Shown here: positions 29,695-43,625 of the stretch, one piece after another
How positions within the stretch are numbered: position 1 is the first letter of the stretch
How the letters are laid out: every line of letters starts with the position of its first letter
Assembly (NCBI GenBank): GCA_900317055.1
Contig: ONFF01000014.1
Span: 18,605-82,604, forward strand
Source of the DNA: an uncultured Bacteroidales bacterium
GTDB taxonomy: Bacteria > Bacteroidota > Bacteroidia > Bacteroidales > F082
Length of the DNA: 64,000 bases
Reading direction: 5' to 3'
Notes under the pieces: generated by a model
What the model was told of the DNA's origin: nothing
The model's database searches: none
What the model saw: the letters and a program-made list of their open reading frames with translations, nothing else
Position numbers and translations under genes: made by a program

Positions 29695-29726
29695 TGTGTT
29701 TATATTTTGAGATGAATAATCATAGT

Positions 29727-30380
29727 TTATTTCAGCACCTTCAGAACCTGCTTCCGTGAGGCTGTTCCATCCGTCAGTTTCGTGATGTGGTCGACTAAGA
29801 ACTCCAGCGACTCCTCGGGGGTGCGGTCGGTGTGGAGCGTGGTGAAGTCTTCGAACAGCGACTCGGGTGTGCAGAAATACGACACTTGCCAGCCGTTGTA
29901 AACCTGCTCGGGTCCACGATACACCCGCTCGATGGCTCCCGTGACGACGCGACATTGCTGCATCAGCTTGCCTATGGCTGCGTCGGCTTGGCCTTTCTTC
30001 ACGCCAAGTAAGTTGCGTACCTCTTTGATGGTGATGCTGCCTTGCTTTTCGAGATAATCCATGATGCGCTCGCCGTTCTTGTCGGGCGTTGTCGTGGCGC
30101 GACGGACATTCATCAGTTCGCGGTAGAATGGAACCGTCGCGAAGGCGGCTTTTCCTCCACAGAGGAACTTTCCGTAGGCGATGCCGCCGTTTTGGAGGCA
30201 GTCGATCTTCCAGTCCCACGGCCCGAGCGAGTCCTCCTCGCCGTCAAACCAAAACCCAGGCTGTGTGAGTTCCTTGATGGAATAGCCCGGGATGGCGCTG
30301 GTGAAAAACGGCACAATGCCCAGCTCGCAAATGGCTCGCTCCATTGTTTCTGGACTGGATATTTGGTAGTTTAAGACCAT
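29727..30380 (-). CDS. AlkZ-related winged-helix protein
   Basis: 217 residues with no signal peptide. The middle (NGERIMDYLEKQGSITIKEVRNLLGVKKGQADAAIGKLMQQCRVV) looks like a winged helix-turn-helix, preceded by an aromatic-rich section (GFWFDGEEDSLGPWDWK). This resembles AlkZ-like proteins related to DNA glycosylases, but the AlkZ catalytic QxQ motif is not seen. It could be a DNA-binding or repair accessory. It sits in the redox cluster between MBL-rubredoxin and alcohol dehydrogenase. Confidence 0.5.
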   Translation of the reverse strand: MVLNYQISSPETMERAICELGIVPFFTSAIPGYSIKELTQPGFWFDGEEDSLGPWDWKIDCLQNGGIAYGKFLCGGKAAFATVPFYRELMNVRRATTTPDKNGERIMDYLEKQGSITIKEVRNLLGVKKGQADAAIGKLMQQCRVVTGAIERVYRGPEQVYNGWQVSYFCTPESLFEDFTTLHTDRTPEESLEFLVDHITKLTDGTASRKQVLKVLK

Positions 30381-30422
30381 GAGCAGAATTGTTTAGATGC
30401 GATTTTTTAGCTGTCAGCAGTC

Positions 30423-30470
30423 AGCTATCAGCTTTCAGCCTCGTTGCTACCAAGCTGATAGCTGATAGCT
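30423..30470. repeat. AGCTATCAGC inverted repeat
   Basis: AGCTATCAGCTTTCAGC (30423-30439) pairs, with one mismatch, with GCTGATAGCTGATAGCT (30454-30470) around a 14-base loop. A third partial unit, AGCTGTCAGCAGTC, precedes it at about 30409. It could fold into a stable hairpin in the gap between two operon genes. Confidence 0.65.
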
Positions 30471-30472
30471 GT

Positions 30473-31414
30473 TCACGCCTTATTAAACTTCTCCTTGCCT
30501 TGCTTGCAGCGCGGGCATTTCCAGTCGTCGGGAAGGTCTTCGAAAGCCACGCCATCGTGCTCAGCGGGGTCATAGACATAACCGCAGATGGAGCAGATGT
30601 ACTTACCAGAGGCCTCTTTTTTTGTGAAGTTCACTTCGGCAAGGACGGTCGGCACGGGGTGGTCGAGGTCTATCACGCGTTTGGTTTCCAAGTTTTCATA
30701 GCCTTGTGGCGAGTGGGTGGAGAGATAGACCGTGGGGTTGTTGCGCACGAACTCGCGCACACGATTCAAGGTCTCGCGGGCGGCTGACAGGTCGTCGTAC
30801 ACCACAGAAAGTTTGTTCTCATACAAAGCCTCGTCCACGTAGGTGATGTCGCCTTGGAACATATAGAACAAGCCTTCGTTCTCGGCAATCACGAGGCTGT
30901 TGCCGTTAGTGTGTCCTTTGGCCTTGATGAACCACACGCCGTCACAGATCTTCTGGCTGTCGGGAAAGTTGTGATATGCCCCGTCGGTAAAGCTCACTGG
31001 CACCAGGTTGGGTAAACCCTGCAACTCGGCAGCCTGCATTTCGTCGGCATTCACATAGATTTTCGCATTCGGGAACGAACGGAGCTCGCCACTATGGTCG
31101 GCATGCTTGTGCGTGAGCAGGATTTTGGTCACTTGTTCTGGCTTGTAGCCCAATGCGGCCAAAGCATCCATATAGTTGCAGATGTCCTTGCCGGTGAAAG
31201 CAAGTGAGTTCTCATCGGGGTTTTCCTCCGGTGTGCCAGCAGGAAGCCCCGTATCCACCAAAATCACCTCCGAGCCCATGTCAATCACATAGTTCTGCAA
31301 GCTGCCGCGATAGCGGATGTTGCGGTCGAACTTATCGGGGCCTTCTTCGCCGCCAAAGGCAAAGGGCTGGGTATAGAACCCCTCTTTTCTGAATTTTACT
31401 GCTTTGATGTCCAT
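30473..31414 (-). CDS. Metallo-beta-lactamase hydrolase fused to rubredoxin
   Basis: 313 residues. About 1-265 is an MBL-fold domain with HKHADH and a later [12 protein letters not shown]; it resembles lactonase-like hydrolases. About 272-313 is a rubredoxin ([11 protein letters not shown] ... [13 protein letters not shown]) with both CxxC knuckles. The C-terminal rubredoxin suggests the enzyme is a redox protein rather than a simple hydrolase. It is the first gene of the cluster, with a -7 box (TATCTTTG, minus strand, 31446-31453) 31 bases upstream. Confidence 0.85.
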
Positions 31415-31456
31415 ATTCGATTAAGTTTAGTTTCATTTTAGGTGACAAAGATACAA

Positions 31457-31494
31457 AAAACCGCAATTCGGGCTATGTCTCAATTGCAGATTAT
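31457..31494. repeat. Dispersed hairpin repeat, degenerate copy B
   Basis: CGCAATT and AATTGCAGATT retain the stem of the repeat family seen at 44323 and 57631 but with a changed loop. It lies between the MBL-rubredoxin and DUF4143 genes, which diverge, so it is not simply a terminator here. Confidence 0.4.
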
Positions 31495-31609
31495 TGCGAT
31501 GAAAAACAATTCAACTTTTTCATTTTTATCGGAAATTTCCCCGAATAACTAGGAAACAAATTTGTTATTGAAAATTATTGCGTATTTTTGCAAAAATTTT
31601 CAGTAGCAA

Positions 31610-32866
31610 ATGAAGGAAGTACAGAGAACAGATTATATTCAATGGCTTGATCGGAAAAAAGGCAATGGGCTGGTAAAAATCATTACTGGTGTGCGTCGAT
31701 GCGGCAAGTCGTATCTTTTGTTCACACTTTTCAAAAGGCATTTGGTTGAACAAGGAATAGGCGAAGATCATATCGTAGCCTTGGCTTTAGATGATTTTGC
31801 AAACAGACAATACCAAGATGCTGACACTTTGTACAACTATGTTAAGTCGAGAATCACGGACGATGACCAATATTATGTCTTGTTGGATGAGATTCAACTT
31901 GTGACCGGTTTTGAGGCCGTGTTGAATGGCTTTTTGCATATCCCCAATATTGATATTTATGTAACGGGTAGTAACTCCAAGTTTCTTTCATCGGATATTG
32001 TGACCGAGTTTCGCGGGCGCGGTGACGAGATTAGGGTTTATCCGTTCAGTTTTGCCGAAGTGCATGAGATTTTTGAAGGAGACAAACATCGAGCATGGTC
32101 TGCTTACTGCCGTTATGGAGGGATGCCCCTCGTATGGGCAGCCCAAACCAGCCAAGACAGAGAACAGTATCTAAAAAACCTATTTGAGCAAGTTTACATT
32201 TCGGACATCATCAATCGTCATGACTTGCGCGGAAAATCCGAAATTGGTTACATTGTCAATATTCTTGCCTCATCAGTCGGTTCTCTGACAAACCCATTGC
32301 GCTTGACCAATACATTCAAATCCGAATTGGGACTCAGCATTTCGCAAAACACTGTGAATTCGTACATCGAGTATCTTGTGGATTCGTTTCTAATCGGGAA
32401 AGTCAATCGATACGATGTCAAAGGACTGCGGTATATCTCTTCTCCTTTGAAATATTATTTTACCGATGTGGGCATGCGCAATGCAAGGCTGAATTTCCGC
32501 CAACAAGACGACTCTCATATCATGGAGAACATAATATACAATGAGTTGCTTCGCCGAAGATTCAGTGTCGATGTAGGTTGTGTTACAGTCAATGTAAAGG
32601 CAGAGAATGGAAAAATGGTGAGAAAACAGTTGGAGGTGGATTTTATTGCTAACAGCGGAGACAAACGATACTACATCCAGTCGGCATTCGATGTGCCTAC
32701 TACAGAGAAGCGTGAACAAGAAGAACGCTCCCTTCTCAACATCAATGACTCTTTCAAGAAAATCATCGTTCAGCAGTCCATAGTCGAACCATGGCATAGT
32801 CAACAGGGGGTGCTTTACATTGGAATTGAGGATTTTCTACTAAATGCCGAAAGTATGGATTTGTAA
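31610..32866 (+). CDS. AAA ATPase with DUF4143 domain
   Basis: 418 residues. AAA domain: Walker A GVRRCGKSYLL (about 27-37), Walker B VLLDEIQ (about 101), sensor VTGSNSKFLSS. C-terminal DUF4143: VYISDIINRHDLR, LVDSFLIGKVNRYD, KYYFTDVGMRNA, and LEVDFIA near a PD-(D/E)xK-like core. The family is abundant in gut Bacteroidota and of unknown function. The -7 box is TATTTTTG at about 31581. It marks the left edge of the accessory island; a deleted paralogue marks the right. Confidence 0.85.
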   Translation: MKEVQRTDYIQWLDRKKGNGLVKIITGVRRCGKSYLLFTLFKRHLVEQGIGEDHIVALALDDFANRQYQDADTLYNYVKSRITDDDQYYVLLDEIQLVTGFEAVLNGFLHIPNIDIYVTGSNSKFLSSDIVTEFRGRGDEIRVYPFSFAEVHEIFEGDKHRAWSAYCRYGGMPLVWAAQTSQDREQYLKNLFEQVYISDIINRHDLRGKSEIGYIVNILASSVGSLTNPLRLTNTFKSELGLSISQNTVNSYIEYLVDSFLIGKVNRYDVKGLRYISSPLKYYFTDVGMRNARLNFRQQDDSHIMENIIYNELLRRRFSVDVGCVTVNVKAENGKMVRKQLEVDFIANSGDKRYYIQSAFDVPTTEKREQEERSLLNINDSFKKIIVQQSIVEPWHSQQGVLYIGIEDFLLNAESMDL

Positions 32867-32923
32867 AAGCCATTGCGCCGTCACCGAAATGACCATTACG
32901 CGGAGGTGATTTTGGGGATGGTG

Positions 32924-32938
32924 AGGTGAAAAAGGATT
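32924..32938. repeat. 15-bp inverted repeat, left copy
   Basis: AGGTGAAAAAGGATT, exact reverse complement of 42848-42862. The two copies enclose the methyltransferase-to-HNH island. It is purine-rich and short, so chance identity is possible. Confidence 0.35.
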
Positions 32939-33040
32939 ATTGTTTTGATGTTATCTTTTTCATACTTTTTTCCATTTTTTTCCGCAAAAACAGTCACCCC
33001 GAACCGCTCAATGCCAATTGTCTATAAGGTTTTGAACTTT

Positions 33041-33075
33041 TTTGTTCAACATTTTCCAAAGTTTGCCTATCTTTG
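33041..33075 (+). promoter_or_regulatory. Promoter of the methyltransferase operon
   Basis: TTTG at 33041-33044 and TATCTTTG at 33068-33075 form a Bacteroidota-type promoter with a slightly long spacer (23 bases). It lies about 270 bases before the first start codon, leaving a long leader that is highly structured. Confidence 0.55.
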
Positions 33076-33160
33076 CCCTCATCAACCCAAAAAGAACATA
33101 CCAACACAGAAGATAACTGATTATATAACATATTGATATAAAGCGTTTTTGCTTTTCAAG

Positions 33161-33293
33161 TATTTCCGAAATCTGGACAATTTCGAATAGTACCACAGAA
33201 AGTAAAAACGTCCGCGGTGTAGCCGTGGACGTTCTGTTGGTACTATAGGCAGTCCAGAGCCTCGGAAATAGACAGAAGTCCGCGGCTCTTTTT
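33161..33293 (+). ncRNA. Structured leader: long hairpin versus competing terminator
   Basis: One fold is a continuous hairpin of about 110 bases: TATTTCCGA/TCGGAAATA (33161-33169 with 33262-33270), TCTGGAC/GTCCAGA (33172-33178 with 33252-33258), TAGTACC/GGTACTA (33188-33194 with 33239-33245), CAGAA/TTCTG, CGTCC/GGACG and an inner GCGG/CCGT. The alternative is an intrinsic terminator: AGAGCC-T-CGGA (33256-33266) with TCCG-C-GGCTCT (33279-33289), then a T run to 33293. The two share bases 33256-33270, so they exclude each other. It is either an attenuator of the downstream operon or a discrete ncRNA ending near 33293. Confidence 0.6.
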
Positions 33294-33304
33294 AATGTGT
33301 TCTT

Positions 33305-33338
33305 CTCAAATGAATTGCGAAAATGCAATTTGAGGAGG
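33305..33338 (+). promoter_or_regulatory. Strong Shine-Dalgarno next to a small hairpin
   Basis: AGGAGG at 33333-33338 lies 6 bases before the methyltransferase ATG, an unusually strong site for this phylum and window. Just upstream AATTGC (33313-33318) pairs with GCAATT (33325-33330); an alternative CTCAAA/TTTGAG pairing would run into the Shine-Dalgarno. This could gate translation. Confidence 0.5.
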
Positions 33339-33344
33339 TACACA

Positions 33345-36029
33345 ATGGCCAAGAAACAAAACTTTTCTCATATAACCGCCCAAGAAGCACTTGAAACAAT
33401 TGCCGACCAACTGAATGCCGACAGTCTTCCTTACGAGCTTCTGCGAATCTTTTGCGGATATGGCGATGCATCGCTCCAGCGTGTGCGTGATGGACGCGAC
33501 AACAAGTCCCGTGACCCCAAAACCATCCTCATTAAGGACAAGTTTGTTTATTGCCCTTTTAGCAAAGGCACCGAACCTTTGGCAACCATCCAAGCACTCA
33601 GAAATATCGCTTCCATCACCCGTCACAATCCTCGTCTTTACATTACCTGCGACGGAACATCGCTTATTGCTTACGACCCAAAAGATGAGGATTTTTACGA
33701 GGGCGCATTAGAGACCCTTTGGCGCGATTTTGAGTTTTTCAAGCCCCTTGCAGGCATCGAGAAATTCCGCAACTATGAAGAGGCCGAGGCTGATGTCAAA
33801 ACCGCTGAACTCATGGCAAAGCTTTACGACGACATTTGCCGCTACAACGACTTTCGCGACCCAGGGGTTTCCCATTGCATCAACGTCTTCATGTCACGAC
33901 TTCTTTTTTGTTTTTTCGCCGAGGATACAGGCCTTTTCAAACAAGACCAGTTTACCAAAGCCATTGAAGACAACACCTCCATCGACGGCTCCGACCTCGC
34001 CGATTTTATTGACAGAATCTTTGTTATCCTTTCCACCAATGACAAGAATCTGCGCGATCAACAAACCAATAAAATCATCTCTGATTTCCCATATGTCAAT
34101 GGTGGTTTGTTTAGTGAGCGTTATACCATTCCCCATCTTAGCCGTCGTGCTCGATTGCTGATGATTCAGTGCGGCAAATTCCAGTGGAGCGAAATCAACC
34201 CCGACATTTTCGGCTCAATGACACAAGCCATTGTATCACCCGAAGACCGTGCCGAGCTGGGCATCCACTACACTTCCGTGCCCAATATCATGAAGGTTAT
34301 CCAACCTCTTTTCTTGGACGACCTCGCCGCCGAATACCTCCGCTGTCGCAACGATGCAAAAGCCCTCAACGCGTTACTGGTCAGAATGGGCAAGATAAAG
34401 TTTTTCGATCCCGCTTGCGGCTCGGGCAACTTCCTCATCATTTCCTACAAGCGAGTGCGTGAGTTGGAGATTGAGATTTGGAAGCGCCTATTTGAGCTTC
34501 AAGCAACGGCCATCCCGTTCACCAACATTCAACTCACCCAGTTTTATGGCATCGAGATTGACGAATATGCTTGCAATACTGCAACGCTCTCTCTATGGCT
34601 GGCAGAGCACCAGATGAACAACAAGTTCCGTGAGGAGTTGGGCACAGCCCCCAACCCGCTGCCCCTGCGTCCCAGCGGTCACATTGTCTGCGGAAACGCC
34701 TGTACTATCGATTGGAACACCGTTTGTCCGCACACAAAGGATGAAGAAGTGTATGTGATGGGGAATCCACCGTATGTTGGAAGTAGAAATCAAAATGATG
34801 TCCAGAAATCAGAAATGGACTTGGTCTTGAAGTACGTTCCATCATATCGCAGATTTGACTATATTGCAATCTGGTTCTACAAAGCGGCTCATTATATTGA
34901 AAGCAATAATGCCCGTTCAGCTTTTGTCAGCACTAACTCGTTGTGTCAAGGTGAACAGTTATTATTTTGGAATAGCATATTAACGAATGGCATCGAAATG
35001 GGCTTTGCATACAAGACCTTTAAGTGGTCAAATAATGCCAAAAACAATGCAGGAGTATCGGTCATTATTATTTGCCTCCAAAACGCTGGAAAGAATTCTC
35101 CCAAGCCTCGTATTTTCGATAATGGAACTTCTATCGTTGTTGACAAAATAGCACCAGATTTATCTGAAGGTGGTACTTATGTAACGGTTAATAAAGCTAC
35201 AACTTCTTTATGTGGGTATCCTGAAATACGTCGAGGCAATATGCCAAATGACCAAGAGATTCTACGGCTTAGCCCTGACGAGAAAGAACAAATGATTAAG
35301 TTGTATCCATCATCGGAAAAGTTTATTCGTATTCAAGTGGGTGCTGAAGAATTCTTGAAATCCATTGAACGTTATTGTCTATGGATTTCAAATGACGATT
35401 ATGATGAAGCGTATGCTATAGAGCCTATTCGAAAACGCATCGATGCAGTAAGAGAATATCGAATCAACAGTAAGGATAAGACACTTCATGAGCAGGCTAA
35501 ACGCCCTCATCAGTTCAGAGAGTTCTTTGAATGCTCCGATAATAGCATCATCATTCCTATTGTTTCATCCGAACAACGCGAATATATCCCGATGGGATTC
35601 GCTAAAAAAGGAGTAATTTTGAATAATTCTGTTCAAGTAGTATACGATGGAAACATTCTTGTGTTTGGTCTCCTTATGTCAAAGATGCATAATATTTGGG
35701 TGCGACAGACAGCAGGGAGATTAGAGTCCCGATTCCGCTATTCGGCATTTTTATGTTACAATGCATTTCCCTTCCCTCGATTAAATGAACAGCAAAAACA
35801 GAATGTTATTGAACTTGCAAAAGAGATTCTTCTCATTCGTGCCGAGCATACCGAAATGACTTTAGGAGAAATGTATAACCCAGATTCTTTCCCGCAAGAT
35901 TTATATATCGCCCACCATGCCCTTGACTTGGCTGTGGAACGTTGCTACCGCGAGAAGCCCTTTGAATCCGACGAGGAACGCTTGGAATTCCTCTTCAAGC
36001 AGTACGTAAAACTAACAACCAATCATTGA
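33345..36029 (+). CDS. MmeI-like class I DNA adenine methyltransferase (apparently nuclease-less)
   Basis: 894 residues from the ATG at 33345, set by the Shine-Dalgarno. The order follows MmeI/type IIL enzymes: N-terminal region (1-150), spacer (EADVKTAELMAKLYDD, FCFFAEDTGLF, FPYVNGGLF, LGIHYTSVPNIMKVI), methyltransferase motif I DPACGSGNF (355-363) and motif IV NPPY (474-477, adenine-N6 type), target-recognition region, and a C-terminal part (RFRYSAFLCYNAFPFP). MmeI proteins normally carry D-ExK endonuclease residues in the N-terminus; I find no ExK in the first 150 residues. Cleavage may therefore be done by the GIY-YIG protein of the same operon. Confidence 0.82.
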   Translation: MAKKQNFSHITAQEALETIADQLNADSLPYELLRIFCGYGDASLQRVRDGRDNKSRDPKTILIKDKFVYCPFSKGTEPLATIQALRNIASITRHNPRLYITCDGTSLIAYDPKDEDFYEGALETLWRDFEFFKPLAGIEKFRNYEEAEADVKTAELMAKLYDDICRYNDFRDPGVSHCINVFMSRLLFCFFAEDTGLFKQDQFTKAIEDNTSIDGSDLADFIDRIFVILSTNDKNLRDQQTNKIISDFPYVNGGLFSERYTIPHLSRRARLLMIQCGKFQWSEINPDIFGSMTQAIVSPEDRAELGIHYTSVPNIMKVIQPLFLDDLAAEYLRCRNDAKALNALLVRMGKIKFFDPACGSGNFLIISYKRVRELEIEIWKRLFELQATAIPFTNIQLTQFYGIEIDEYACNTATLSLWLAEHQMNNKFREELGTAPNPLPLRPSGHIVCGNACTIDWNTVCPHTKDEEVYVMGNPPYVGSRNQNDVQKSEMDLVLKYVPSYRRFDYIAIWFYKAAHYIESNNARSAFVSTNSLCQGEQLLFWNSILTNGIEMGFAYKTFKWSNNAKNNAGVSVIIICLQNAGKNSPKPRIFDNGTSIVVDKIAPDLSEGGTYVTVNKATTSLCGYPEIRRGNMPNDQEILRLSPDEKEQMIKLYPSSEKFIRIQVGAEEFLKSIERYCLWISNDDYDEAYAIEPIRKRIDAVREYRINSKDKTLHEQAKRPHQFREFFECSDNSIIIPIVSSEQREYIPMGFAKKGVILNNSVQVVYDGNILVFGLLMSKMHNIWVRQTAGRLESRFRYSAFLCYNAFPFPRLNEQQKQNVIELAKEILLIRAEHTEMTLGEMYNPDSFPQDLYIAHHALDLAVERCYREKPFESDEERLEFLFKQYVKLTTNH

Positions 36030-36032
36030 CCT

Positions 36033-37973
36033 ATGAAGAATTTAGTCCAGATACAATACGGCCAAACAGGGGCGTCGTCAACCACCGATGCTCTCGGAAT
36101 GCGCGAAATGCAGCGCATTGTCTATCAAGCGCGCAACCGCCAATATCTGCTTGTTAAGGCTCCGCCAGCGTCCGGCAAAAGCCGAGCTTTGATGTTTGTC
36201 GCCCTCGATAAGCTAAAGCATCAGGGCATCAAGCGTGTCATTGTGGCCGTTCCCGAAAAGACCATCGCTCGTTCCTTCAACGATACGGAACTCAAACCAT
36301 TCGGTTTCTTTGCAGACTGGAAAGTCAGCGATGGATACAATCTTTGCACTCCAGGTCTTAAGGAAAGTGGGCTGCGCCAAAAGTTCATCGACTTTCTCAC
36401 AAGCAGCGCCACAGTCCTGGTCTGCACCCATTCCACGTTTCGCAATGCGCTGAAGGATTTGGACATCACGCTGCTGAATGACACGTTTATCGGCATCGAT
36501 GAATTTCATCACACTTCAGCCGATGAAATGAACAACTTAGGCACAGCCATCCGCACCATTATGGCGGGCAGCAACGCTCATATCATGGCAATGACTGGTT
36601 CTTATTTCCGTGGCGATGCCATTCCTGTGATGCGCCCCGAAGACGAAGCCAAGTTCCAGCCAACCATCACCTACAACTATTACCAGCAACTCAATGGCTA
36701 CAAGCACTTGAAGAGCTTGGGTATAGGATACCAATTCTACCAAGGCAAATACATTTCCGCCTTGCCTGAAACGCTTGATACTACCAAAAAGACACTCATC
36801 CATATTCCCACACCCCAATCGCGTTCTGCCTACACCCGCAAATATGACCAAGTGGCCGACATCATTTCCTGCATCGGCACCATTGTAGGCGAAGATGCAG
36901 AGCACTACATCAAAATGGTCAAAACGCCTGATGGCCGCATTCTCAAAGTAGGCGACCTTGTGGAAGACGAACCTCGTCAGCGCGATGCCTTGCAAGCTTA
37001 TCTCAATAGAATGGATAGTGCCGATGCCCTTGATATTCTCATTGCTCTTGGCACTGCCAAAGAAGGTTTCGATTGGCAGTGGTGCGAGTGTTGCCTGACC
37101 ATCGGCATCCGTGCATCCCTCACCGAAGTGGTTCAGATTATCGGACGTTGCACACGAGATTGTGAAGGCAAGACCCATGCCCAATTCACCAACCTCATCC
37201 CTTGTCCCACAGCCGCTGAAGACGATGTAAAGACCGCAGTCAACGATATGCTAAAGGCAATCACCGCTTCACTCTTGATGGAGCAGGTAATGCAGCCCGA
37301 ATGGAATTTCCGAACGGCACCTGAAAAAGATGACGAGGATGACCGTGATGATGGTGACAAGACTATCCGAGTGAAAGGTCTCAAAAAGACTACTGACAGA
37401 GTGCAGTCCATCATCGAAAACGACCTCACCGAACTCAAAGCCACCCTCTATTCCAGCGACATCATCAAGCAAGCCCTTGCGGGAAGCCAAATTGGAGAAG
37501 TCATCACCCAGTCGCTCATTCCCAAGATTATTGAGGAACGCTATCCAGACCTAACCCCCGATGAGCAGGAACAACTGCGCCAACATGTGGTGCTGTCCAC
37601 CACATTGCAAGGCGCAGAGGTTGTGACAAGGGATGATGGCAGCAAATTCCTGAAGGTTGCCAATCAATTCATTGACCTTGACAAACTCAGCATCAACCTC
37701 ATTGATAGCATCAACCCCTTCCAACGTGCATACGAGATTCTTTCCAAGTCACTTACTCCAGAAGTCCTTCGCACCATTCAAGATACCATCGATGCCCAGC
37801 GTGAGGATATGACTAAGGAGGAGGCTGTCATTCTTTACAAGAAATACTTGCCCAAATACAGGGAAGAACACGGTGGGGCATTGCCCACCGTACACGACCC
37901 CGACCCAACAGCAAAGCGAATTGCTGTTGCTATCGCCTTCTTGCGTAAACTGAAACAGCAATCTTTATCATAG
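36033..37973 (+). CDS. DEAD/DEAH-like SF2 helicase of the methyltransferase operon
   Basis: 646 residues, starting 3 bases after the methyltransferase stop. Helicase core in about 1-400: Walker A APPASGKS (43-50), IDEFHH as a DEFH box, MTGS (motif III), TAKEGFDW (motif V) and QIIGRCTRD (motif VI). The C-terminal 250 residues are charged (EKDDEDDRDDGDK) and helical, with no domain I can name. It probably translocates on or remodels DNA for the partner methyltransferase and nuclease, like the motor subunits of type I/III restriction systems. Confidence 0.82.
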   Translation: MKNLVQIQYGQTGASSTTDALGMREMQRIVYQARNRQYLLVKAPPASGKSRALMFVALDKLKHQGIKRVIVAVPEKTIARSFNDTELKPFGFFADWKVSDGYNLCTPGLKESGLRQKFIDFLTSSATVLVCTHSTFRNALKDLDITLLNDTFIGIDEFHHTSADEMNNLGTAIRTIMAGSNAHIMAMTGSYFRGDAIPVMRPEDEAKFQPTITYNYYQQLNGYKHLKSLGIGYQFYQGKYISALPETLDTTKKTLIHIPTPQSRSAYTRKYDQVADIISCIGTIVGEDAEHYIKMVKTPDGRILKVGDLVEDEPRQRDALQAYLNRMDSADALDILIALGTAKEGFDWQWCECCLTIGIRASLTEVVQIIGRCTRDCEGKTHAQFTNLIPCPTAAEDDVKTAVNDMLKAITASLLMEQVMQPEWNFRTAPEKDDEDDRDDGDKTIRVKGLKKTTDRVQSIIENDLTELKATLYSSDIIKQALAGSQIGEVITQSLIPKIIEERYPDLTPDEQEQLRQHVVLSTTLQGAEVVTRDDGSKFLKVANQFIDLDKLSINLIDSINPFQRAYEILSKSLTPEVLRTIQDTIDAQREDMTKEEAVILYKKYLPKYREEHGGALPTVHDPDPTAKRIAVAIAFLRKLKQQSLS

Positions 37974-37982
37974 AAATAACCC

Positions 37983-39218
37983 ATGAGAGACTGGGACGCA
38001 GAATTGCACGACATATTATCCGAACCATTTTTTGATGATGTAAAGCCCATCAAACGGCAATCTACATCATCAGACCGTCTCATAAACTCCTTCATTGAAG
38101 TGCTGGATTTCGTGGAGGCCGAAGGAAGGGAGCCGTCGGAAAATGCGGAAACACTCGAAGAGCTGAAGCTCTTCCGCACACTTCGTAGTATCCGTTCAGA
38201 TGCGACCAAACGTCGAATTTGTCAGGGCGCTGACACAATCGGCCTTCTTTCCGAAGCCAACTTGCCCCAAGTCATAGAAGAGAGTTCTATCATTGAGTCC
38301 GTTCCTGTTGAATCCGTTGCCCCAGCGGAAGAAACGGAACTGCATGATGAGTTAGAGGATATTCTTAATGACCCCCTGTTCGATGATGTCACATCCGAAA
38401 GTAGTGGTTTGTTCGACGTTCCCGACTACATGCAAAAGAAGATGCAAGAACGGGCAGAAGCCGAGTCTATTGCAAAGCGTACTGAGTGTAAGGATTTTGC
38501 TGATTTTGAGGAAGGGTTTCAAGTCATCCACAAGAAACTGGATGATGGCCGATGCCGTCTTGTTCGCTTCAAGGAAGCTCACCTCGTTGAAGGCCGATAC
38601 TTTGTTGTAGGCAACATGCTGTTGTATCTTGTGCACCTTAACAAACACGCCAAGCGTCGCGATTCCCGCGGACGTGCCGACGACCGAACCCGATGCATCT
38701 TTGAGAACGGCACCGAAAACAATGTCTATCAACAAACACTTGTCAAATCTCTCTACACAGAAGGTTATACAGTGGTTGACTATAGCGATGTCGAGCCTGA
38801 TTATCTCGTTAAGCACTTCACGCCTGGCGAAAGCGATGTCGTCAGCGGATGGATATACATTCTCCGCTCACTTTCCACAGACCCTGAAATTGCTGGCATT
38901 AAAGACCTCTACAAGATAGGTTTTACTTGCCAGACCGTTGAGCAGCGCATAGCCAATGCCGAGAATGAATCCACCTATCTCTTTGCAAAAGTCCAGATAA
39001 TAAAGACCTACCAAGTGGCCAACATCAAAGCCTCCACATTTGAGAATCTGATACACAAATTGTTCGATTCGGTACAGCTTCAAGTGAATGCAGGTATTGC
39101 CAAGCCTAAAGAGTGGTACATCGTACCATTCCCCATCATCGACCAAGCCATTCATTACATAATTGAGGGCAAACAAGTGGCATACGACCATAACATACAA
39201 GAACTAATCCTATTATAA
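37983..39218 (+). CDS. GIY-YIG nuclease domain protein of the methyltransferase operon
   Basis: 411 residues. The N-terminal half has two similar acidic segments (ELHDILSEPFFDDV and ELHDELEDILNDPLFDDV), suggesting a duplicated interaction motif. The middle has GRADDRTRCIFENGTENNVYQQTL. From residue 289 is a GIY-YIG nuclease of the T5orf172/MUG113 type: GWIYIL, DLYKIGFT, EQRIANAE (Arg) and FENLIHKLF (Glu). It starts 9 bases after the helicase. It is the only candidate nuclease in the operon. Confidence 0.8.
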   Translation: MRDWDAELHDILSEPFFDDVKPIKRQSTSSDRLINSFIEVLDFVEAEGREPSENAETLEELKLFRTLRSIRSDATKRRICQGADTIGLLSEANLPQVIEESSIIESVPVESVAPAEETELHDELEDILNDPLFDDVTSESSGLFDVPDYMQKKMQERAEAESIAKRTECKDFADFEEGFQVIHKKLDDGRCRLVRFKEAHLVEGRYFVVGNMLLYLVHLNKHAKRRDSRGRADDRTRCIFENGTENNVYQQTLVKSLYTEGYTVVDYSDVEPDYLVKHFTPGESDVVSGWIYILRSLSTDPEIAGIKDLYKIGFTCQTVEQRIANAENESTYLFAKVQIIKTYQVANIKASTFENLIHKLFDSVQLQVNAGIAKPKEWYIVPFPIIDQAIHYIIEGKQVAYDHNIQELILL

Positions 39219-39223
39219 AGACC

Positions 39224-40045
39224 ATGACTGCAAACACCACCATACATCCAGATAGTCCTTTCCGTATTGGCACCTCGGGCAAATTCAAGTTGCTGATAAA
39301 AAAAACAGAGAAATACTTTGATTACTTTGGATATGAGTTGTTAGATGCAGAAGGAAAGGAGTATAAGGCAACTGCAAAGACCTTGTATTTAGAAGGTCAA
39401 TTGCTTCGTTGCATGGTGAATTTTAAAGTGGAGAAAGCAAAACTGGTAGTTGAAAGTGTTGCAGTTTGTAGTAAGCAGGATTTGGCAACGCCAGTTCCTG
39501 TTGAGAAGAAACCAAAGGCCGAGCCTAAACCTAATTCTTCACCAAAACATAAAGCAGTATCTGAACCAAAGAAAAAAGAAAAAACAAAACCTACATCTCA
39601 GCCTAAAGGAAACGATATTGTTATTGAATTGGGTAATCCTCGAAAAAGGCGGTTGTCAGGGAATTATATTCTTTGTGTTAGAAGGGCTGAACAACATAAC
39701 GTTGATTATTCTTATCAGTTAGAAGATGCGAACGGGAAAAAATACCCATTTCGATCAACACGTTTATTGAAAACCGGTTATGCTTATTTCTTTTATGTTG
39801 ATGTCTCCGTGACGGCAGTAAGCGGTTTGAAAATTGAAGTAATAAAAGTAGTAAGCAGTTATAAGAAAAAAGCAACCAAAAGCGAAAAGCAAGAAAAACA
39901 AAAGCGAACTAAAAGAAAACGCCACTCAAGAAGAGGTGGAGCAACAGGAAAGGTTTTCTATAGGGAAGCTACCAATTATAGACAACAAAATTGGGAGCCC
40001 ACCATATATAAAGGTGGTGGTCATATAATATACACTCGTATGTAA
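39224..40045 (+). CDS. Unrecognised basic protein with internal duplication
   Basis: 273 residues, 5 bases after the GIY-YIG gene. Two related domains of about 70 residues occur at 13-81 and 141-211. Each has a hydrophobic strand plus basic pair, then DY.GYELLDAEGKEY / DYSYQLEDANGKKY, then a strand ending in VVESVAV / IEVIKVV. They are joined by a Lys/Pro-rich linker and followed by a very basic stretch (KRTKRKRHSRRGG) and an aromatic tail. There is no signal peptide. The shape suggests nucleic-acid binding. I do not recognise the family. It is visibly more AT-rich than the first three operon genes. Confidence 0.7.
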   Translation: MTANTTIHPDSPFRIGTSGKFKLLIKKTEKYFDYFGYELLDAEGKEYKATAKTLYLEGQLLRCMVNFKVEKAKLVVESVAVCSKQDLATPVPVEKKPKAEPKPNSSPKHKAVSEPKKKEKTKPTSQPKGNDIVIELGNPRKRRLSGNYILCVRRAEQHNVDYSYQLEDANGKKYPFRSTRLLKTGYAYFFYVDVSVTAVSGLKIEVIKVVSSYKKKATKSEKQEKQKRTKRKRHSRRGGATGKVFYREATNYRQQNWEPTIYKGGGHIIYTRM

Positions 40046-40081
40046 CAATTAGAATTCAATTATTTATCAAAACTCATAATC

Positions 40082-40306
40082 ATGAACGCACAAGGAAGAA
40101 AAGAGATTGTGAAGTACATCGCTTCGCTTGAAGAAATCAAAAGCAAACTCGAATCCATGAAGGATGAAGAGGAAGACAAATTCGACAACATGCCCGAAGG
40201 CTTGCAGGAAAGCGAACGCGGCGAAGCCATGCAGGAAGCCATCGAGCAACTGGAAACGGCTTGCGACAATCTGGATGAAGCAATCAGCGCGTTACAGGAA
40301 ATCTAA
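40082..40306 (+). CDS. Small acidic coiled-coil protein
   Basis: 74 residues, almost wholly helical: KYIASLEEIKSKLESMKDEEED, then NMPEGLQESERGEAMQEA and AIEQLETACDNLDEAISALQEI. The NMPEGLQ-SERGE segment recurs in small proteins of phages and Gram-positive and Bacteroidota genomes that I cannot assign a function. It starts 36 bases after the basic protein gene, so it may be the last gene of the operon. Confidence 0.6.
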   Translation: MNAQGRKEIVKYIASLEEIKSKLESMKDEEEDKFDNMPEGLQESERGEAMQEAIEQLETACDNLDEAISALQEI

Positions 40307-40335
40307 TCTATGGTTTGACAGAAACACGATATATC

Positions 40336-40428
40336 ATGGGATTCATTGCAATCGTCATCTTGCTCACCTTGCTTGCCGATGGAGGCAAGTACTTTTTTGG
40401 TGATGGCAAAGGCGGACTCTTCAAATAA
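40336..40428 (+). CDS. Possible 30-residue membrane peptide
   Basis: ATG at 40336, 29 bases after the coiled-coil gene. The peptide has one hydrophobic segment (MGFIAIVILLTLLADGGKY) followed by a glycine/lysine tail. The compact membrane-spanning design is suggestive, but it is too short for confidence. Confidence 0.3.
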   Translation: MGFIAIVILLTLLADGGKYFFGDGKGGLFK

Positions 40429-40531
40429 GAGGGTTCTTGTTGATTCTTTTAAAGTGTACAAGTTAGTGCGCTCCAAATCAATCATTGATGAAATCGATGA
40501 TTACATCACCTATTTATTTGGGCTGAAATAG
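40403..40531 (+). CDS. Possible 42-residue overlapping small ORF
   Basis: ATG at 40403 overlaps the end of the 30-residue frame by 26 bases in another frame. The product (MAKADSSNKRVLVDSF, then VRSKSIIDEIDDYITYLF) is amphipathic. The overlap could mean coupling or a decayed gene. Weak support. Confidence 0.2.
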   Translation: MAKADSSNKRVLVDSFKVYKLVRSKSIIDEIDDYITYLFGLK

Positions 40532-40563
40532 GGTGAAATAAAAATATGAGTTGGAGTTTTGGA

Positions 40564-40651
40564 TGACAAGAGAATGAATGTCATTTTTATGTCAATATGT
40601 CAGATCGACAATAGCAAGTTCGAGAAAGGCCAATTGGCACAAATATTGACA
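40564..40651. promoter_or_regulatory. Repeated ATGTCA motifs upstream of winged-helix gene
   Basis: Three ATGTCA direct repeats (40578, 40589, 40597) and TGACA at 40564-40568 and 40647-40651 precede the winged-helix gene at 40695. They could be an operator array; none matches the usual -7 element. Confidence 0.3.
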
Positions 40652-40694
40652 TTTACGATTTAAATTATTAACAAGAACAAACACCTAAAAACAC

Positions 40695-40958
40695 ATGGAA
40701 AGAATTAACAAATTGAAAGATATTCTTCAAAGGAAAACCAAATTGAATAATAGCCGATATCTCGAAGTAAATATCAATGAGATTTCAAATGAAATAGGGT
40801 GTAGTATGAAAGAAGTGTTGTATATGCTTAATGAACTATGTTTACAAAAAGACATCAAAGCGGTCAAACAAGTCGGTTTAGGTAACGATTATATGCTTAC
40901 TGTTTTGGAAAAGTCTACTATATGGAGTGATTGGCATAAAAAAATAGAAGAAATGTAA
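40695..40958 (+). CDS. Small winged-helix-like protein
   Basis: 87 residues. The segment EISNEIGCSMKEVLYMLNELCLQKDIKAVKQVG followed by DYMLTVLE looks like a helix-turn-helix plus wing. It is a likely transcriptional regulator or DNA-binding adaptor, 19 bases ahead of the TIR gene. The DNA here is AT-rich. The family is not recognised. Confidence 0.55.
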   Translation: MERINKLKDILQRKTKLNNSRYLEVNINEISNEIGCSMKEVLYMLNELCLQKDIKAVKQVGLGNDYMLTVLEKSTIWSDWHKKIEEM

Positions 40959-40977
40959 TAACCAATAATGTATTTGA

Positions 40978-42000
40978 ATGTTTCCTATGACTAAAATCTT
41001 TACATCATACACTAATACTGTTCGCAGAATGCTAAAAGGATATAATACCGATTTGTATAACATATTTTGCGATCAGAACATCGAAGAAACCTGGGTTAAC
41101 CATGATAATTGGAATGGGGGCATTGACTTCTATAATATTGTCATTAGGGTTCCTGTTGATTTTTTTGAAACCCTTCGTAAAAGAAATGCTGTTGAAGAAA
41201 CTGAGAAGGTGTTAAAGGAATATTATGATGATGCGATGCGCGGCGAAGGAGAATCGATTCAAATTAGTAATGTAATACTGAAACCTACGGCTGAAGACAT
41301 TTCTACTTTTGGGGATAATTTGGATGACTCTATGTGGAAACACGGACAATTCCGTTTATTCATAAGTCATCTTAGTTCAAATAAGCAATCCGCATCATAT
41401 CTTAAGTCTTGCTTGTCTAATTACGGAATAGATTGTTTTGTCGCGCATGAAGATATTACTCCATCAAAGGAATGGGAGATAGAGATAGAAAAAGCATTGT
41501 TTACGATGGATGCTTTGTGTGCAATATTGACTCGCGATTTTATCAATAGCGAATGGTGTGACCAAGAGGTCGGAATCGCTTTAGGTCAAAAAAAATTGGT
41601 GATTTCTGTAAACAAAGGAGCGGTGCCCTATGGGTTTATTGGAAAATATCAAGCATTAAAAAGTGCAAGCACAGCAAATGGTATGGCTTTAGAAATCTGG
41701 AAAACCATATCTACAAACGACAGGACAAAAGCTGTTTATTGGAAAAAGTTAGTCTCTCTGGTTTTGGATGCATCGGATTCATCTGAAGCAATGCAATTTA
41801 TAGAAATCCTTAAGAAATGTGAGAATGTTGATAAGTATTTCATAGAATACTTGCATGAGAACATAGGTTCAAATAAGGTTTTGAATTCTCAAGATGTGAT
41901 AGAATCTGTAAATCTTGTTTTTCAGAAATACGGATTGATGCCTATAGTGCTTTCTTCTCACTTAACCATTCAAAATAATGAAGATGAGTTGCCATTTTAA
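40978..42000 (+). CDS. TIR-domain protein with unknown N-terminal domain
   Basis: 340 residues; an ATG at 40987 is an alternative start. About 1-120 is a domain I cannot name (VNHDNWNGGIDFYNIVIRVP). About 124-235 is a TIR domain: FRLFISHLSSNKQSASYL, NYGIDCFVAHEDITPSKEW, LTRDFINSEWCDQEVGIALG. The conserved WCxxE glutamate (Glu197), catalytic for NAD+ cleavage in bacterial TIRs, is present. About 100 C-terminal helical residues follow. It is probably an abortive-infection effector, triggered through the N-terminal domain or partner genes. Strongly AT-rich compared with flanking chromosome. Confidence 0.8.
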   Translation: MFPMTKIFTSYTNTVRRMLKGYNTDLYNIFCDQNIEETWVNHDNWNGGIDFYNIVIRVPVDFFETLRKRNAVEETEKVLKEYYDDAMRGEGESIQISNVILKPTAEDISTFGDNLDDSMWKHGQFRLFISHLSSNKQSASYLKSCLSNYGIDCFVAHEDITPSKEWEIEIEKALFTMDALCAILTRDFINSEWCDQEVGIALGQKKLVISVNKGAVPYGFIGKYQALKSASTANGMALEIWKTISTNDRTKAVYWKKLVSLVLDASDSSEAMQFIEILKKCENVDKYFIEYLHENIGSNKVLNSQDVIESVNLVFQKYGLMPIVLSSHLTIQNNEDELPF

Positions 42001-42017
42001 AATTGCGCTTCAACAAC

Positions 42018-42779
42018 ATGTATATTCATGATGGTCAATGCATTTGGTGTGGAAGGAAAGCCCCAACAGCAACATTTAGTACGATTCCACATATTCTCCC
42101 CAAATCATTGGGTGGAACCGAAACATGTGTTGATGTTTGCGATGATTGTAACCATTATTTCGGGACTCCAGCGAAAGGACTTCCTTCTATTGATGTTGTA
42201 TTAAGAGAGATTTTTGAATCTTACCGTCTCTTTGGTACAAATTATTATGAAGAACACAATCCACCAAAAAAGTTCACTTTCTTTCACTATAATCACGAAA
42301 AGAAAAGACTTAAATTGAAAGACCCGTTTAGGGAGGCCACTATCACATCTCAATTCAAAAGAGGACTATTCGAACTCTTTCTTCAAAAATATCATGCGGC
42401 AACATTTGATGGTAATGATCAAAGATGGGATTGGGTTCGGTCTTATGCTCGATATGGTACGGAAATAATTCCTATAGAGCCTCACGTTTACTATGCTTTC
42501 AACAATATTGTTTTTCACCCTAGTGATGAAAATATGAATATTGTTCCCATGTCGGATAAGTTAATTGAAGACGCTTTGAAATATGGCGTTTTTCATTTTT
42601 TTTTAATGGGTCAGAACTTCTATCTAGAGGTGTTGCCGCATTTATTTCAGCAATATGGCAAAGAGTATTTGCAAAACGAAGCAAAAACAATGCTTTTACA
42701 TGCTAAAGGCGATGAGTGTATTTTCGAATTCACTAGAATAAGACAAATTGACCCATTTATGACAAGATTTAGAGAGTGA
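42018..42779 (+). CDS. HNH endonuclease-like protein
   Basis: 253 residues from the ATG at 42018; an upstream TTG is less likely. The N-terminus is a zinc-bound HNH module: CIWCGRKAP, then PHILPKSLGGTE and VCDDCNHYFG, with both CxxC pairs and the HILPxSLGG motif. The remaining 190 residues are not recognised. It starts 17 bases after the TIR gene on the same strand, so the two probably form one unit (NADase plus DNA nuclease). Confidence 0.75.
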   Translation: MYIHDGQCIWCGRKAPTATFSTIPHILPKSLGGTETCVDVCDDCNHYFGTPAKGLPSIDVVLREIFESYRLFGTNYYEEHNPPKKFTFFHYNHEKKRLKLKDPFREATITSQFKRGLFELFLQKYHAATFDGNDQRWDWVRSYARYGTEIIPIEPHVYYAFNNIVFHPSDENMNIVPMSDKLIEDALKYGVFHFFLMGQNFYLEVLPHLFQQYGKEYLQNEAKTMLLHAKGDECIFEFTRIRQIDPFMTRFRE

Positions 42780-42847
42780 AAAACCTTTTACGTTTTAAAC
42801 AATACCGCTCAGCTACCACTTCCTCCATCTCCACTTTCATCTTTCCC

Positions 42848-42862
42848 AATCCTTTTTCACCT
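42848..42862. repeat. 15-bp inverted repeat, right copy
   Basis: AATCCTTTTTCACCT, exact reverse complement of 32924-32938, 69 bases after the HNH gene. The spacing between the copies matches the defence island. Confidence 0.35.
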
Positions 42863-42914
42863 TTAAATTGGGGTCGTTGTCGTAACCTGGTTTTAGGTTT
42901 TTGAACTAAAAATC

Positions 42915-43002
42915 GCCATTATTGGCACTTTTTAGTCGTAAGCAGTTGGTCGATTGAAAGTATTTATTACTTTTGCATTACCAATAATTGCCAATAATGG
43001 CA
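42915..43002. promoter_or_regulatory. Two GCCA-N4-TGGC sites and promoter of the decayed ATPase gene
   Basis: GCCATTATTGGCA (42915-42927) and TGCCAATAATGGC (42989-43001) are exact reverse complements, and each is a near-palindrome. A -7 box TACTTTTG lies at about 42968-42975 between them, so they may be operator sites for the ATPase gene. Confidence 0.4.
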
Positions 43003-43017
43003 TAATTTAGGAATGAG

Positions 43018-43625
43018 ATGGTGGAAATTAAAAGAGACAGATATCTTCAACAGCTGATAGAAAGCCGTCAGAACGGCCTCGTCAAAGTGGTTACGGGAAT
43101 CCGCAGGTGTGGCAAATCGTATCTCTTGGCTATCTGTTGGAATCATTCCTTGTAAACAAGGCCATTCGCTATGATATCAAAGGCAAAAAGTATATCAACA
43201 CGCTTTCAAAGTATTATTTTTCTGACATAGGTTTGAGAAATGCCATTCTCAATATGCGCCAACAAGAGGAATCGCATATCATGGAGAATATCATCTACAA
43301 CGAACTGATTACCCGGGGTTACAACGTGGATGTCGGGATGGTAGAGATAAAAAAGCAGGACAAGGATGGGAAATGGATTCGTGTCCAGCTTGAAGTCGAT
43401 TTTATTGCCAACCTCGGAAGCAAAAAGTATTATGTGCAATCGGCTTTGTCAATCCCTGATAGAGAAAAGGAAATACAAGAATCCCGTTCGCTAACAAACA
43501 TCAATGATTCATTCAAGAAGGTTATTGTTGTCAAAGAGCACATCATGCCGCGCAGAAACGAAGATGGGATACTCACTATTGGGCTGTTCGATTTTCTCCT
43601 CAAGGAGGATAGTTTAGACATGTAA
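43018..43625 (+). pseudogene. DUF4143 AAA ATPase with large internal deletion
   Basis: The first 36 codons (ATG at 43018) match the start of the ATPase family up to Walker A, VTGIRRCGKSYLL. At about 43130 the sequence jumps, in another frame, to YLLESFLVNKAIRYDIKG and then runs to the normal C-terminus (HIMENIIYNELITRG, LEVDFIANLG, INDSFKKVIVV). By comparison with the intact gene at 31610-32866 about 240 residues are missing, including Walker B and the sensor region. The N-terminal frame stops at 43153. It cannot make a working ATPase. Confidence 0.85.

Follow-up and report, generated by a model that had tools for sequence, protein, structure and literature searches.

A dnmA-yeeB-yeeC-like locus of an uncultured Bacteroidales bacterium, a candidate ATP-dependent restriction-modification system with a nuclease-dead MmeI-type methyltransferase

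Introduction

In Type I restriction-modification systems, specificity and methylation reside on separate proteins, HsdS and HsdM, and HsdR combines nuclease and motor in one chain. Nuclease-less homologues of MmeI were described by Morgan in 2009 beside the yeeB and yeeC genes, and a Type I-like system was suggested (via PMC7261158 and PMC9973331; articles cited by PMC accession are represented here by excerpts, to which our statements refer). The dnmA-yeeB-yeeC family occurs on the chromosomes and plasmids of many groups. As far as those excerpts go, published experiments were performed mostly on B. subtilis, in which the system looked dead; adenine marking has been demonstrated for B. subtilis DnmA, and its YeeB and YeeC are reported to be without stretches found in the V. 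crassostreae homologues (PMC7261158, PMC9973331). In MmeI itself, mutation of D70, E80 or K82 abolishes cutting (PMC4833311). Here we describe a locus of this kind in a 64,000-nt stretch of DNA from an uncultured Bacteroidales bacterium ("the window"), to which all coordinates refer.

Results

The locus (L001 in our survey) consists of four genes on the + strand, separated by 3, 9 and 5 bases according to the ORF calls, and the positions and gaps given in a preliminary description of the sequence were thus confirmed. The first gene (33345..36029) encodes an MmeI-type gamma N6-adenine DNA methyltransferase of 894 residues, similar to DnmA/YeeA; an alternative GTG start at 33297 would add 16 codons. 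It is followed by genes for a YeeB-like SF2 helicase/translocase of 646 residues (P0002; 36033..37973), a YeeC-like GIY-YIG (T5orf172) nuclease of 411 residues (P0003; 37983..39218) and a basic protein of 273 residues in which Pfam finds no family above cut-off (P0004; 39224..40045). The first three reading frames are all open in the window, and the unit lies within a block that is absent from genome G037.

Pfam orders the methyltransferase as MmeI_N, MmeI_hel, MmeI_Mtase, MmeI_TRD and MmeI_C, the MmeI-like arrangement originally proposed for it, and the sole match among PDB sequences is MmeI itself (5hr4; E 1.4e-165, 555.8 bits). The DPACGSGNF and GNPPY motifs are intact, again as first reported, and the target recognition domain occupies residues 611-813 (35175..35783, +; MmeI_TRD). 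The N-terminal region, residues 1-164 (33345..33836, +), is recognizable as a degenerate nuclease domain (MmeI_N at residues 23-164, E 2.1e-14); the ExK motif is missing, as the preliminary description had it, and threonine, cysteine and phenylalanine stand at the columns aligned with the catalytic D, E and K of MmeI. PADLOC assigns the protein to the class 'REase_MTase_IIG', a name implying a nuclease which the protein lacks.

Relatives of the methyltransferase were collected with MmeI_TRD, which yielded 57 places above 200 bits besides the window, in 56 stretches, with 17 weaker rows left out; among 14 control genomes the domain was matched in two, B. subtilis being one of them. In the 31 helicase-linked methyltransferases, neither Glu80 (counted as kept if Glu or Asp) nor Lys82 of MmeI was retained in a single case, L114 being blank at both columns, and 37 of 39 solitary relatives retained Asp70, Glu80 and Lys82 together. 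All 39 solitary relatives carry GNPPF, as opposed to GNPPY in the window. S2_L117 and S2_L131, whose contigs equal those of L011 and L007 in length, were dropped from these counts as repeats of them; U_L103, whose contig ends with no partner seen, and U_L132, a repeat of L079, were counted apart, and both are without the E and K; L082 was counted twice for its two near-identical tandem genes. Shorter or broken ORFs were excluded from the 31 and the 39 and their sites checked separately, L037 not included: the helicase-linked L009, L033, L036 and L038 have no E at the E column (L009 does have the K-column lysine), D, E and K are all in place in the solitary L088, L102 and L124, and L003, L006, L018, L077, L108, L110 and L112 end short of the nuclease site. 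Forty-six stretches, L103 among them, had no helicase match; 29 of these extend at least 3 kb downstream of the methyltransferase, and the other 17, with less than 3 kb, may end before a partner is reached. Absence of the nuclease site goes with the presence of the helicase-nuclease pair, which supports a split system, and the degenerate domain probably serves as a scaffold.

The helicase is matched by Pfam DEAD/ResIII, and its Walker A motif PPASGKS, together with DEFHH, AKEGFDW and QIIGRxTRD, is near-invariant across 31 aligned sequences. Its predicted fold (pTM 0.56) returned general SF2 matches, and the 50 that were listed include EcoR124I and LlaBIII. In the nuclease, Pfam places T5orf172/MUG113 (GIY-YIG) at the C-terminus, and G289, Y292, K311, G313, R322, E354, H358, P375, E377 and W378 are invariant in 28 aligned sequences. 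P0003 gave no match to PDB sequences up to E 0.1, and a fold search with its model (pTM 0.35) gave none at E <= 0.001. For helicase and nuclease PADLOC produced only weak matches (best E 5.6e-8, to PbeA, and 0.0025).

The N-terminus of the nuclease carries an acidic motif in two copies, at residues 5-18 (37995..38036, +) and 121-134 (38343..38384, +), both evident in the alignment. Copy 1 also fits a profile built from the copy-2 sites of other sequences, and 0 of 200 shuffles fitted equally well; the duplication that the preliminary description had pointed out is therefore upheld. Of 31 fused nucleases 29 show it, and some loci have the copies distributed over two proteins. Neither the duplication nor this distribution is mentioned in the excerpts cited here. 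On this conservation, the duplicated motif could be a docking site of the nuclease.

The unit of methyltransferase, helicase and nuclease recurs across phyla and also on plasmids; phage records gave two partial helicase matches. A nuclease gene adjoins the helicase in 34 of 35 helicase loci, the exception (L029) stopping at a contig edge, and a methyltransferase relative lies nearby in 26 of the 35, although in L018 and L037 it is just a fragment. Six of the nine helicase loci without a methyltransferase have less than 1 kb of contig upstream; in the remaining three, L012, L031 and L032, upwards of 2 kb are available upstream of helicase and nuclease and contain no methyltransferase match, and L012 has SIR2, HerA-like and Schlafen-type genes in its place. 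In other loci RhuM, Schlafen AlbA, YhcG with HipA, or PemK lie between methyltransferase and helicase, or Fic directly ahead of the helicase, all of them kinds of gene known from Type I operons.

The fourth gene does not share the conservation of the first three, and the four do not co-occur as four, contrary to the initial view of them as a unit. Across L001-L041, P0004 matched only L001, the window itself; it was found in one of 295 genomes of the order (its own) and two of 99 genomes of the genus (its own and G036), and had no match in any plasmid record searched. Given this near-absence, P0004 was rejected as a core subunit. Its relative in G036 comes immediately after a nuclease fragment that is 98% identical to P0003, so that P0004 can travel with the unit; it is an optional local passenger, outside the core.

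Comparison of close relatives revealed turnover of the recognition domain. In ten close pairs the recognition domains are 32-47% identical and the helicases 80-97%; nine of these pairs have helicases 86-97% identical with recognition domains again at 32-47%. Between the window and L007, residues 1-335 of the methyltransferase are 94% identical and the recognition domain 46%, whereas helicase and nuclease are 95% and 93% identical (83% and 87% in their worst 60-residue windows). Because the recognition domains have diverged with so little change in the partners, it is probably the methyltransferase that directs the cutter to its target, in the manner of Type I systems, to judge from these alignments. 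The nuclease has also diverged in less close pairs (59-79% identity in five of the eight compared), which counts against such an arrangement.

Discussion

We regard the locus as likely to be an ATP-dependent restriction-modification system that has several subunits and belongs to the dnmA-yeeB-yeeC family, with the methyltransferase as its specificity subunit. The split of an MmeI-type system into separate methyltransferase, motor and nuclease proteins, as the preliminary description interpreted it, is supported by the Pfam assignments, the survey of loci and the loss of the nuclease site; that interpretation stands for the split and the conserved duplicated motif, and is unsupported as to the role of the fourth gene and as to novelty. 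We infer complex formation, docking, translocation and restriction as follows. The recognition domain would bring the methyltransferase to an asymmetric site, where the enzyme would mark an adenine, as expected from the family. At an unmarked site it would act as specificity subunit and recruit the SF2 motor and GIY-YIG nuclease; the two acidic motifs would tether the nuclease, with the helicase as the most likely partner. Movement powered by ATP would then set off cutting, perhaps upon an encounter of two complexes, and this would account for the protection of the host by a mark on one strand of an asymmetric site.

Other readings must be weighed against this one. The methyltransferase may effectively be an orphan regulator and helicase and nuclease relics, as proposed for B. 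subtilis, where no restriction phenotype was seen under the conditions tested, according to the excerpts (PMC9973331, PMC7261158). We consider this unlikely for the window, since all three frames are open and motor and nuclease retain their catalytic residues in different phyla; moreover, deletion of the dnmA and yeeB homologues of Vibrio crassostreae is reported to have increased sensitivity to some phage subclades, although not to others (PMC9973331). Helicase and nuclease might instead recognize a sequence of their own, the methyltransferase merely protecting it, as in CglI/NgoAVII, and in CglI too the methyltransferase, the helicase-like ATPase and the nuclease are separate (PMC4267653, PMC5737866). 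A recognition part belonging to the cutter itself would be expected to have changed as well, and the comparison with L007 and six further pairs (helicases 88-97% identical, recognition domains 32-47%) therefore makes this quite improbable; nor does Pfam find a B3-type recognition domain in P0002 or P0003, parts of both being unmatched by Pfam.

The three loci in which helicase and nuclease stand with no methyltransferase detected count against a three-part system, and would suit a modification-dependent or damage-sensing nuclease-helicase pair (cf. Hachiman) with the methyltransferase as a chance companion. This we hold to be very improbable indeed, because 26 of the 35 loci include a methyltransferase relative, six of the nine misses are contig edges, and nuclease-site loss in the methyltransferase tracks the presence of the pair. 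For the restriction-modification reading, the sequence data suggest that the system is alive and that a single modular recognition domain would set marking and cutting alike. It would then be a motor-driven restriction enzyme that can be re-targeted and that cuts by means of a GIY-YIG protein, which would explain why yeeB and yeeC are retained beside dnmA.

The three-gene set fits the published dnmA(yeeA)-yeeB-yeeC cluster in composition and gene order as described. Shared with it, in the available text of PMC7261158 and PMC9973331, are an MmeI-like methyltransferase without an N-terminal endonuclease motif, an SF2 helicase gene first downstream and, second downstream, a protein with a C-terminal T5orf172/GIY-YIG domain; the window differs in its extra, optional fourth gene. 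As this composition is already in print, the set is not new, contrary to what was first supposed. It goes by gene names there; no defence-system name for it was found in the open-licence literature, as far as the text available to us extends, and the excerpts of PMC12707154, PMC9519451 and PMC10853773 do not describe it.

Type IIL MmeI (PDB 5hr4; PMC4833311) shares the nuclease fold, helical spacer, methyltransferase, recognition domain and C-terminal bundle, but unites cleavage with methylation in a single chain that has a PD-(D/E)xK site; since the catalytic D-E-K is missing in the window, cutting must rely on other proteins. The Type ISP enzymes LlaGI and LlaBIII likewise couple motor, methyltransferase and recognition domain to a nuclease, and follow a collision logic for one-strand marking that is only proposed for the window; they are, however, single polypeptides, whereas the window has three ORFs and a GIY-YIG cutter (PMC5737866). 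CglI/NgoAVII also comprise three genes, for a methyltransferase, a helicase-like ATPase and a nuclease (PMC4267653, PMC5737866), but that nuclease is of the PLD family and has its own B3-like domain, neither of which Pfam finds in the window. With Type I systems (EcoR124I; PMC3874165) the locus shares specificity in the modifying part, a separate motor and, in some loci, accessory genes between subunits. By ORFs and Pfam, however, it does not show the Type I subunit make-up: methylation and specificity lie in one chain, and the nuclease is on a separate GIY-YIG protein. We give roughly even chances that this represents a distinct ATP-dependent restriction architecture. An MmeI-type enzyme with a dead nuclease would there supply both modification and specificity, freely exchange its recognition domain, and drive a shared SF2 motor and a GIY-YIG cutter held by the duplicated acidic motif, in one chain or two.

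Composition of the unit and its relation to a described family

The four genes of the preliminary description were recovered in the window with the same coordinates and spacing: an MmeI-type methyltransferase (33345-36029), an SF2 helicase (36033-37973), a GIY-YIG nuclease (P0003; 37983-39218) and a basic protein (P0004; 39224-40045), separated by 3, 9 and 5 bases, respectively. Domain searches identified the full MmeI domain set, in order, in the first gene (residues 83-892 matched MmeI, 5hr4, at 555.8 bits), a DEAD/ResIII helicase in the second and a C-terminal T5orf172/MUG113 (GIY-YIG) domain in the third; no family scored above cut-off for the fourth.

The B. subtilis cluster dnmA(yeeA)-yeeB-yeeC is described as an MmeI-like methyltransferase without a nuclease motif, an SF2 helicase and a T5orf172 protein, the product of DnmA being m6A at GACGAG, and a survey reported there places yeeB-like and yeeC-like families at downstream positions 1 and 2 (PMC9973331, PMC7261158). 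Morgan 2009, as cited there, noted motif-less MmeI homologues flanked by yeeB and yeeC relatives, sets which may form a Type I-like system (PMC9973331, PMC7261158). As the published cluster shares its composition, order, domain content and missing motif, the window unit is best filed as a member of this family. These accounts give no phage phenotype in B. subtilis with three phages and transformation unaffected by dnmA (PMC9973331, PMC7261158); the homologues in V. crassostreae are reported, in PMC9973331, to give protection from some phages.

Distribution and genomic setting

A single search of genome contigs, with the window helicase as query, yielded 35 loci, whose record titles, in part by our interpretation, point to these groups: Bacteroidota, Bacilli, Anaerovirgula, Chlamydiae, Verrucomicrobia, Akkermansiaceae, Phycisphaerae, Sulfurimonas, Helicobacteraceae, Enterovibrio, Ignatzschineria and Acetobacter. 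A GIY-YIG gene directly followed the helicase in 34 of the 35, and a methyltransferase relative lay nearby in 26 (in L018 and L037, just fragments); six of the nine lacking one had less than 1 kb of contig upstream, the remainder being L012, L031 and L032. Within the window's order, 58 of 295 genomes gave an MmeI_TRD match, and the helicase was present in 6 of the 199 relatives, a count that includes the window's own genome. On plasmids, helicase matches were found in 263 records (153 at >=80% of its length) and nuclease matches in 225 (156 at >=80%), and the three genes are annotated as adjacent on one E. coli and one Providencia plasmid. When the E. coli plasmid copy was used as a DNA query, 4 of 5426 E. 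coli genomes matched, three at >=80% of the query: the query plasmid itself and two others, both of strain AW1.7.

In genome G037, window positions 29722-30432 are followed after 80 bases by 42821-42962, so that approximately 30433-42820, unit included, is missing at that place. This variable block also holds genes for a TIR-domain protein and, 2 bases after it, an HNH_5 protein (40978-42779), possibly a separate defence pair. To the left of the unit is an intact AAA/DUF4143 ATPase gene (31610-32866; in PADLOC, a PDC-S01 candidate), and to the right a relative with an internal deletion (43107-43625), matching residues 1-45 and 255-418; G030 carries a full-length relative at the place of the deleted copy. 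Elsewhere, RhuM, Schlafen AlbA_2, DUF1016/YhcG with HipA, PemK, DUF2971, DUF3800 or a helicase of 1602 aa lies between methyltransferase and helicase, and in L032, which lacks a methyltransferase match, a Fic gene immediately precedes the helicase. At L012:3050-9956, SIR2, HerA-like and Schlafen AlbA_2 genes precede helicase and nuclease in place of the methyltransferase.

The fourth gene

The fourth gene had been counted as part of the system, a claim that did not hold: among loci L001-L041, P0004 matched only the window's own stretch, and it had no match in G078, a genome with helicase and nuclease 95% and 93% identical to the window's. A genus search found a relative in G036 only, with residues 1-125 in common; there it comes right after a contig-end nuclease fragment (98% identity to P0003) and is followed by a 74-aa gene of the kind present in the window (40082-40306; phrog_4068, E 3.2e-22). 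The window's own genome also has a ZorA-ZorB-ZorC set (PADLOC E 8e-30, 3.6e-63 and 2e-14), followed by a protein with similarity to the G036 protein's tail (33% across 218 columns; E 6e-36) and then by the 74-aa gene. P0004-type and 74-aa genes are thus passengers trailing different defence operons in this genus. The 74-aa protein recurs at 93% identity behind the Zorya-like set and at 92% in G036. Eleven bases before that set (L151:3436-8346; G000 contig C18) stands a 1636-aa single-chain restriction enzyme-methyltransferase, covered over its whole length by PADLOC REase_MTase_IIG/REase_MTase_I, which we read as Type ISP-like.

Loss of the nuclease site from helicase-linked methyltransferases

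Stretches were fetched around strong MmeI_TRD matches of the order, and methyltransferases were sorted by the presence or absence of the helicase and GIY-YIG pair, with MmeI nuclease residues D70, E80 and K82 (PMC4833311) as reference columns. Of the solitary enzymes, 37 of 39 kept D, E and K, and only L094 and L101, whose N-terminal region is missing, did not. Among 31 non-redundant helicase-linked enzymes, the window's included, none carried an acidic residue (E or D) at the E column or K at the K column (L114 is blank at both, its N-terminus being cut off). Because E and K are gone from the linked enzymes and D, E and K stand in 37 of 39 solitary ones, the earlier reading of the methyltransferase as nuclease-less is correct and extends to the group as sampled. 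The linked enzymes carried GNPPY (26), GNPPF (2) or neither (3); all 39 solitary enzymes carried GNPPF. L094 (786 aa) and L101 (777 aa) align with nothing in the PADLOC IIG model before position 144-146, and their fetched stretches contain no helicase/GIY-YIG pair.

The acidic motif of the nuclease

Ten residues were invariant in 28 nucleases (G289, Y292, K311, G313, R322, E354, H358, P375, E377 and W378). The acidic motif, noted as duplicated in the window nuclease (residues 5-18 and 121-134), proved family-wide: with a leave-one-out profile built from copy 2 and shuffles as control, the best other site began no later than residue 28 in 29 of the 31 fused nucleases (misses, L030 and L033); for four of the 29 (L027, L019, L013 and L008), >=16% of shuffles scored as well. 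Sites reaching the lower quartile of first-copy scores were rare in helicases (3/45) and in methyltransferases (1/33 linked, 2/39 solitary). At L014, L015, L016, L018, L036, L037, L038, L041 and plasmid L150 the nuclease is split: a small reading frame of its own holds the first part, and the nuclease starts near copy 2; by eye, the motif is in both proteins except at L036 and L038. That the two copies can occur in two proteins suggests that each may dock independently on a single partner, the likeliest being the helicase.

Turnover of the recognition domain

In close pairs the recognition domain had turned over, with other parts little altered. Identities over methyltransferase residues 1-335, recognition domain, helicase and nuclease were 94%, 46%, 95% and 93% for window/L007, 93%, 47%, 96% and 90% for L008/L013, and 88%, 36%, 88% and 87% for L126/L130; for L014/L015, in which three parts were compared, they were 92%, 40% and 97% (helicase). 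Compared in 60-residue windows, helicase and nuclease had minima of 82-92% identity in window/L007, L008/L013 and L014/L015. In looser pairs the nuclease diverged too (window/L011, 77%, worst window 52%; L028/L030, 59%, worst window 35%). Read most simply, the methyltransferase would be the specificity subunit for cutting as well as for marking; relaxed selection on the recognition domain is a possible alternative cause of the turnover. With such a specificity subunit the set would be like systems of Types I and ISP, and would differ from CglI, described as having a nuclease with its own recognition domain (PMC5737866).
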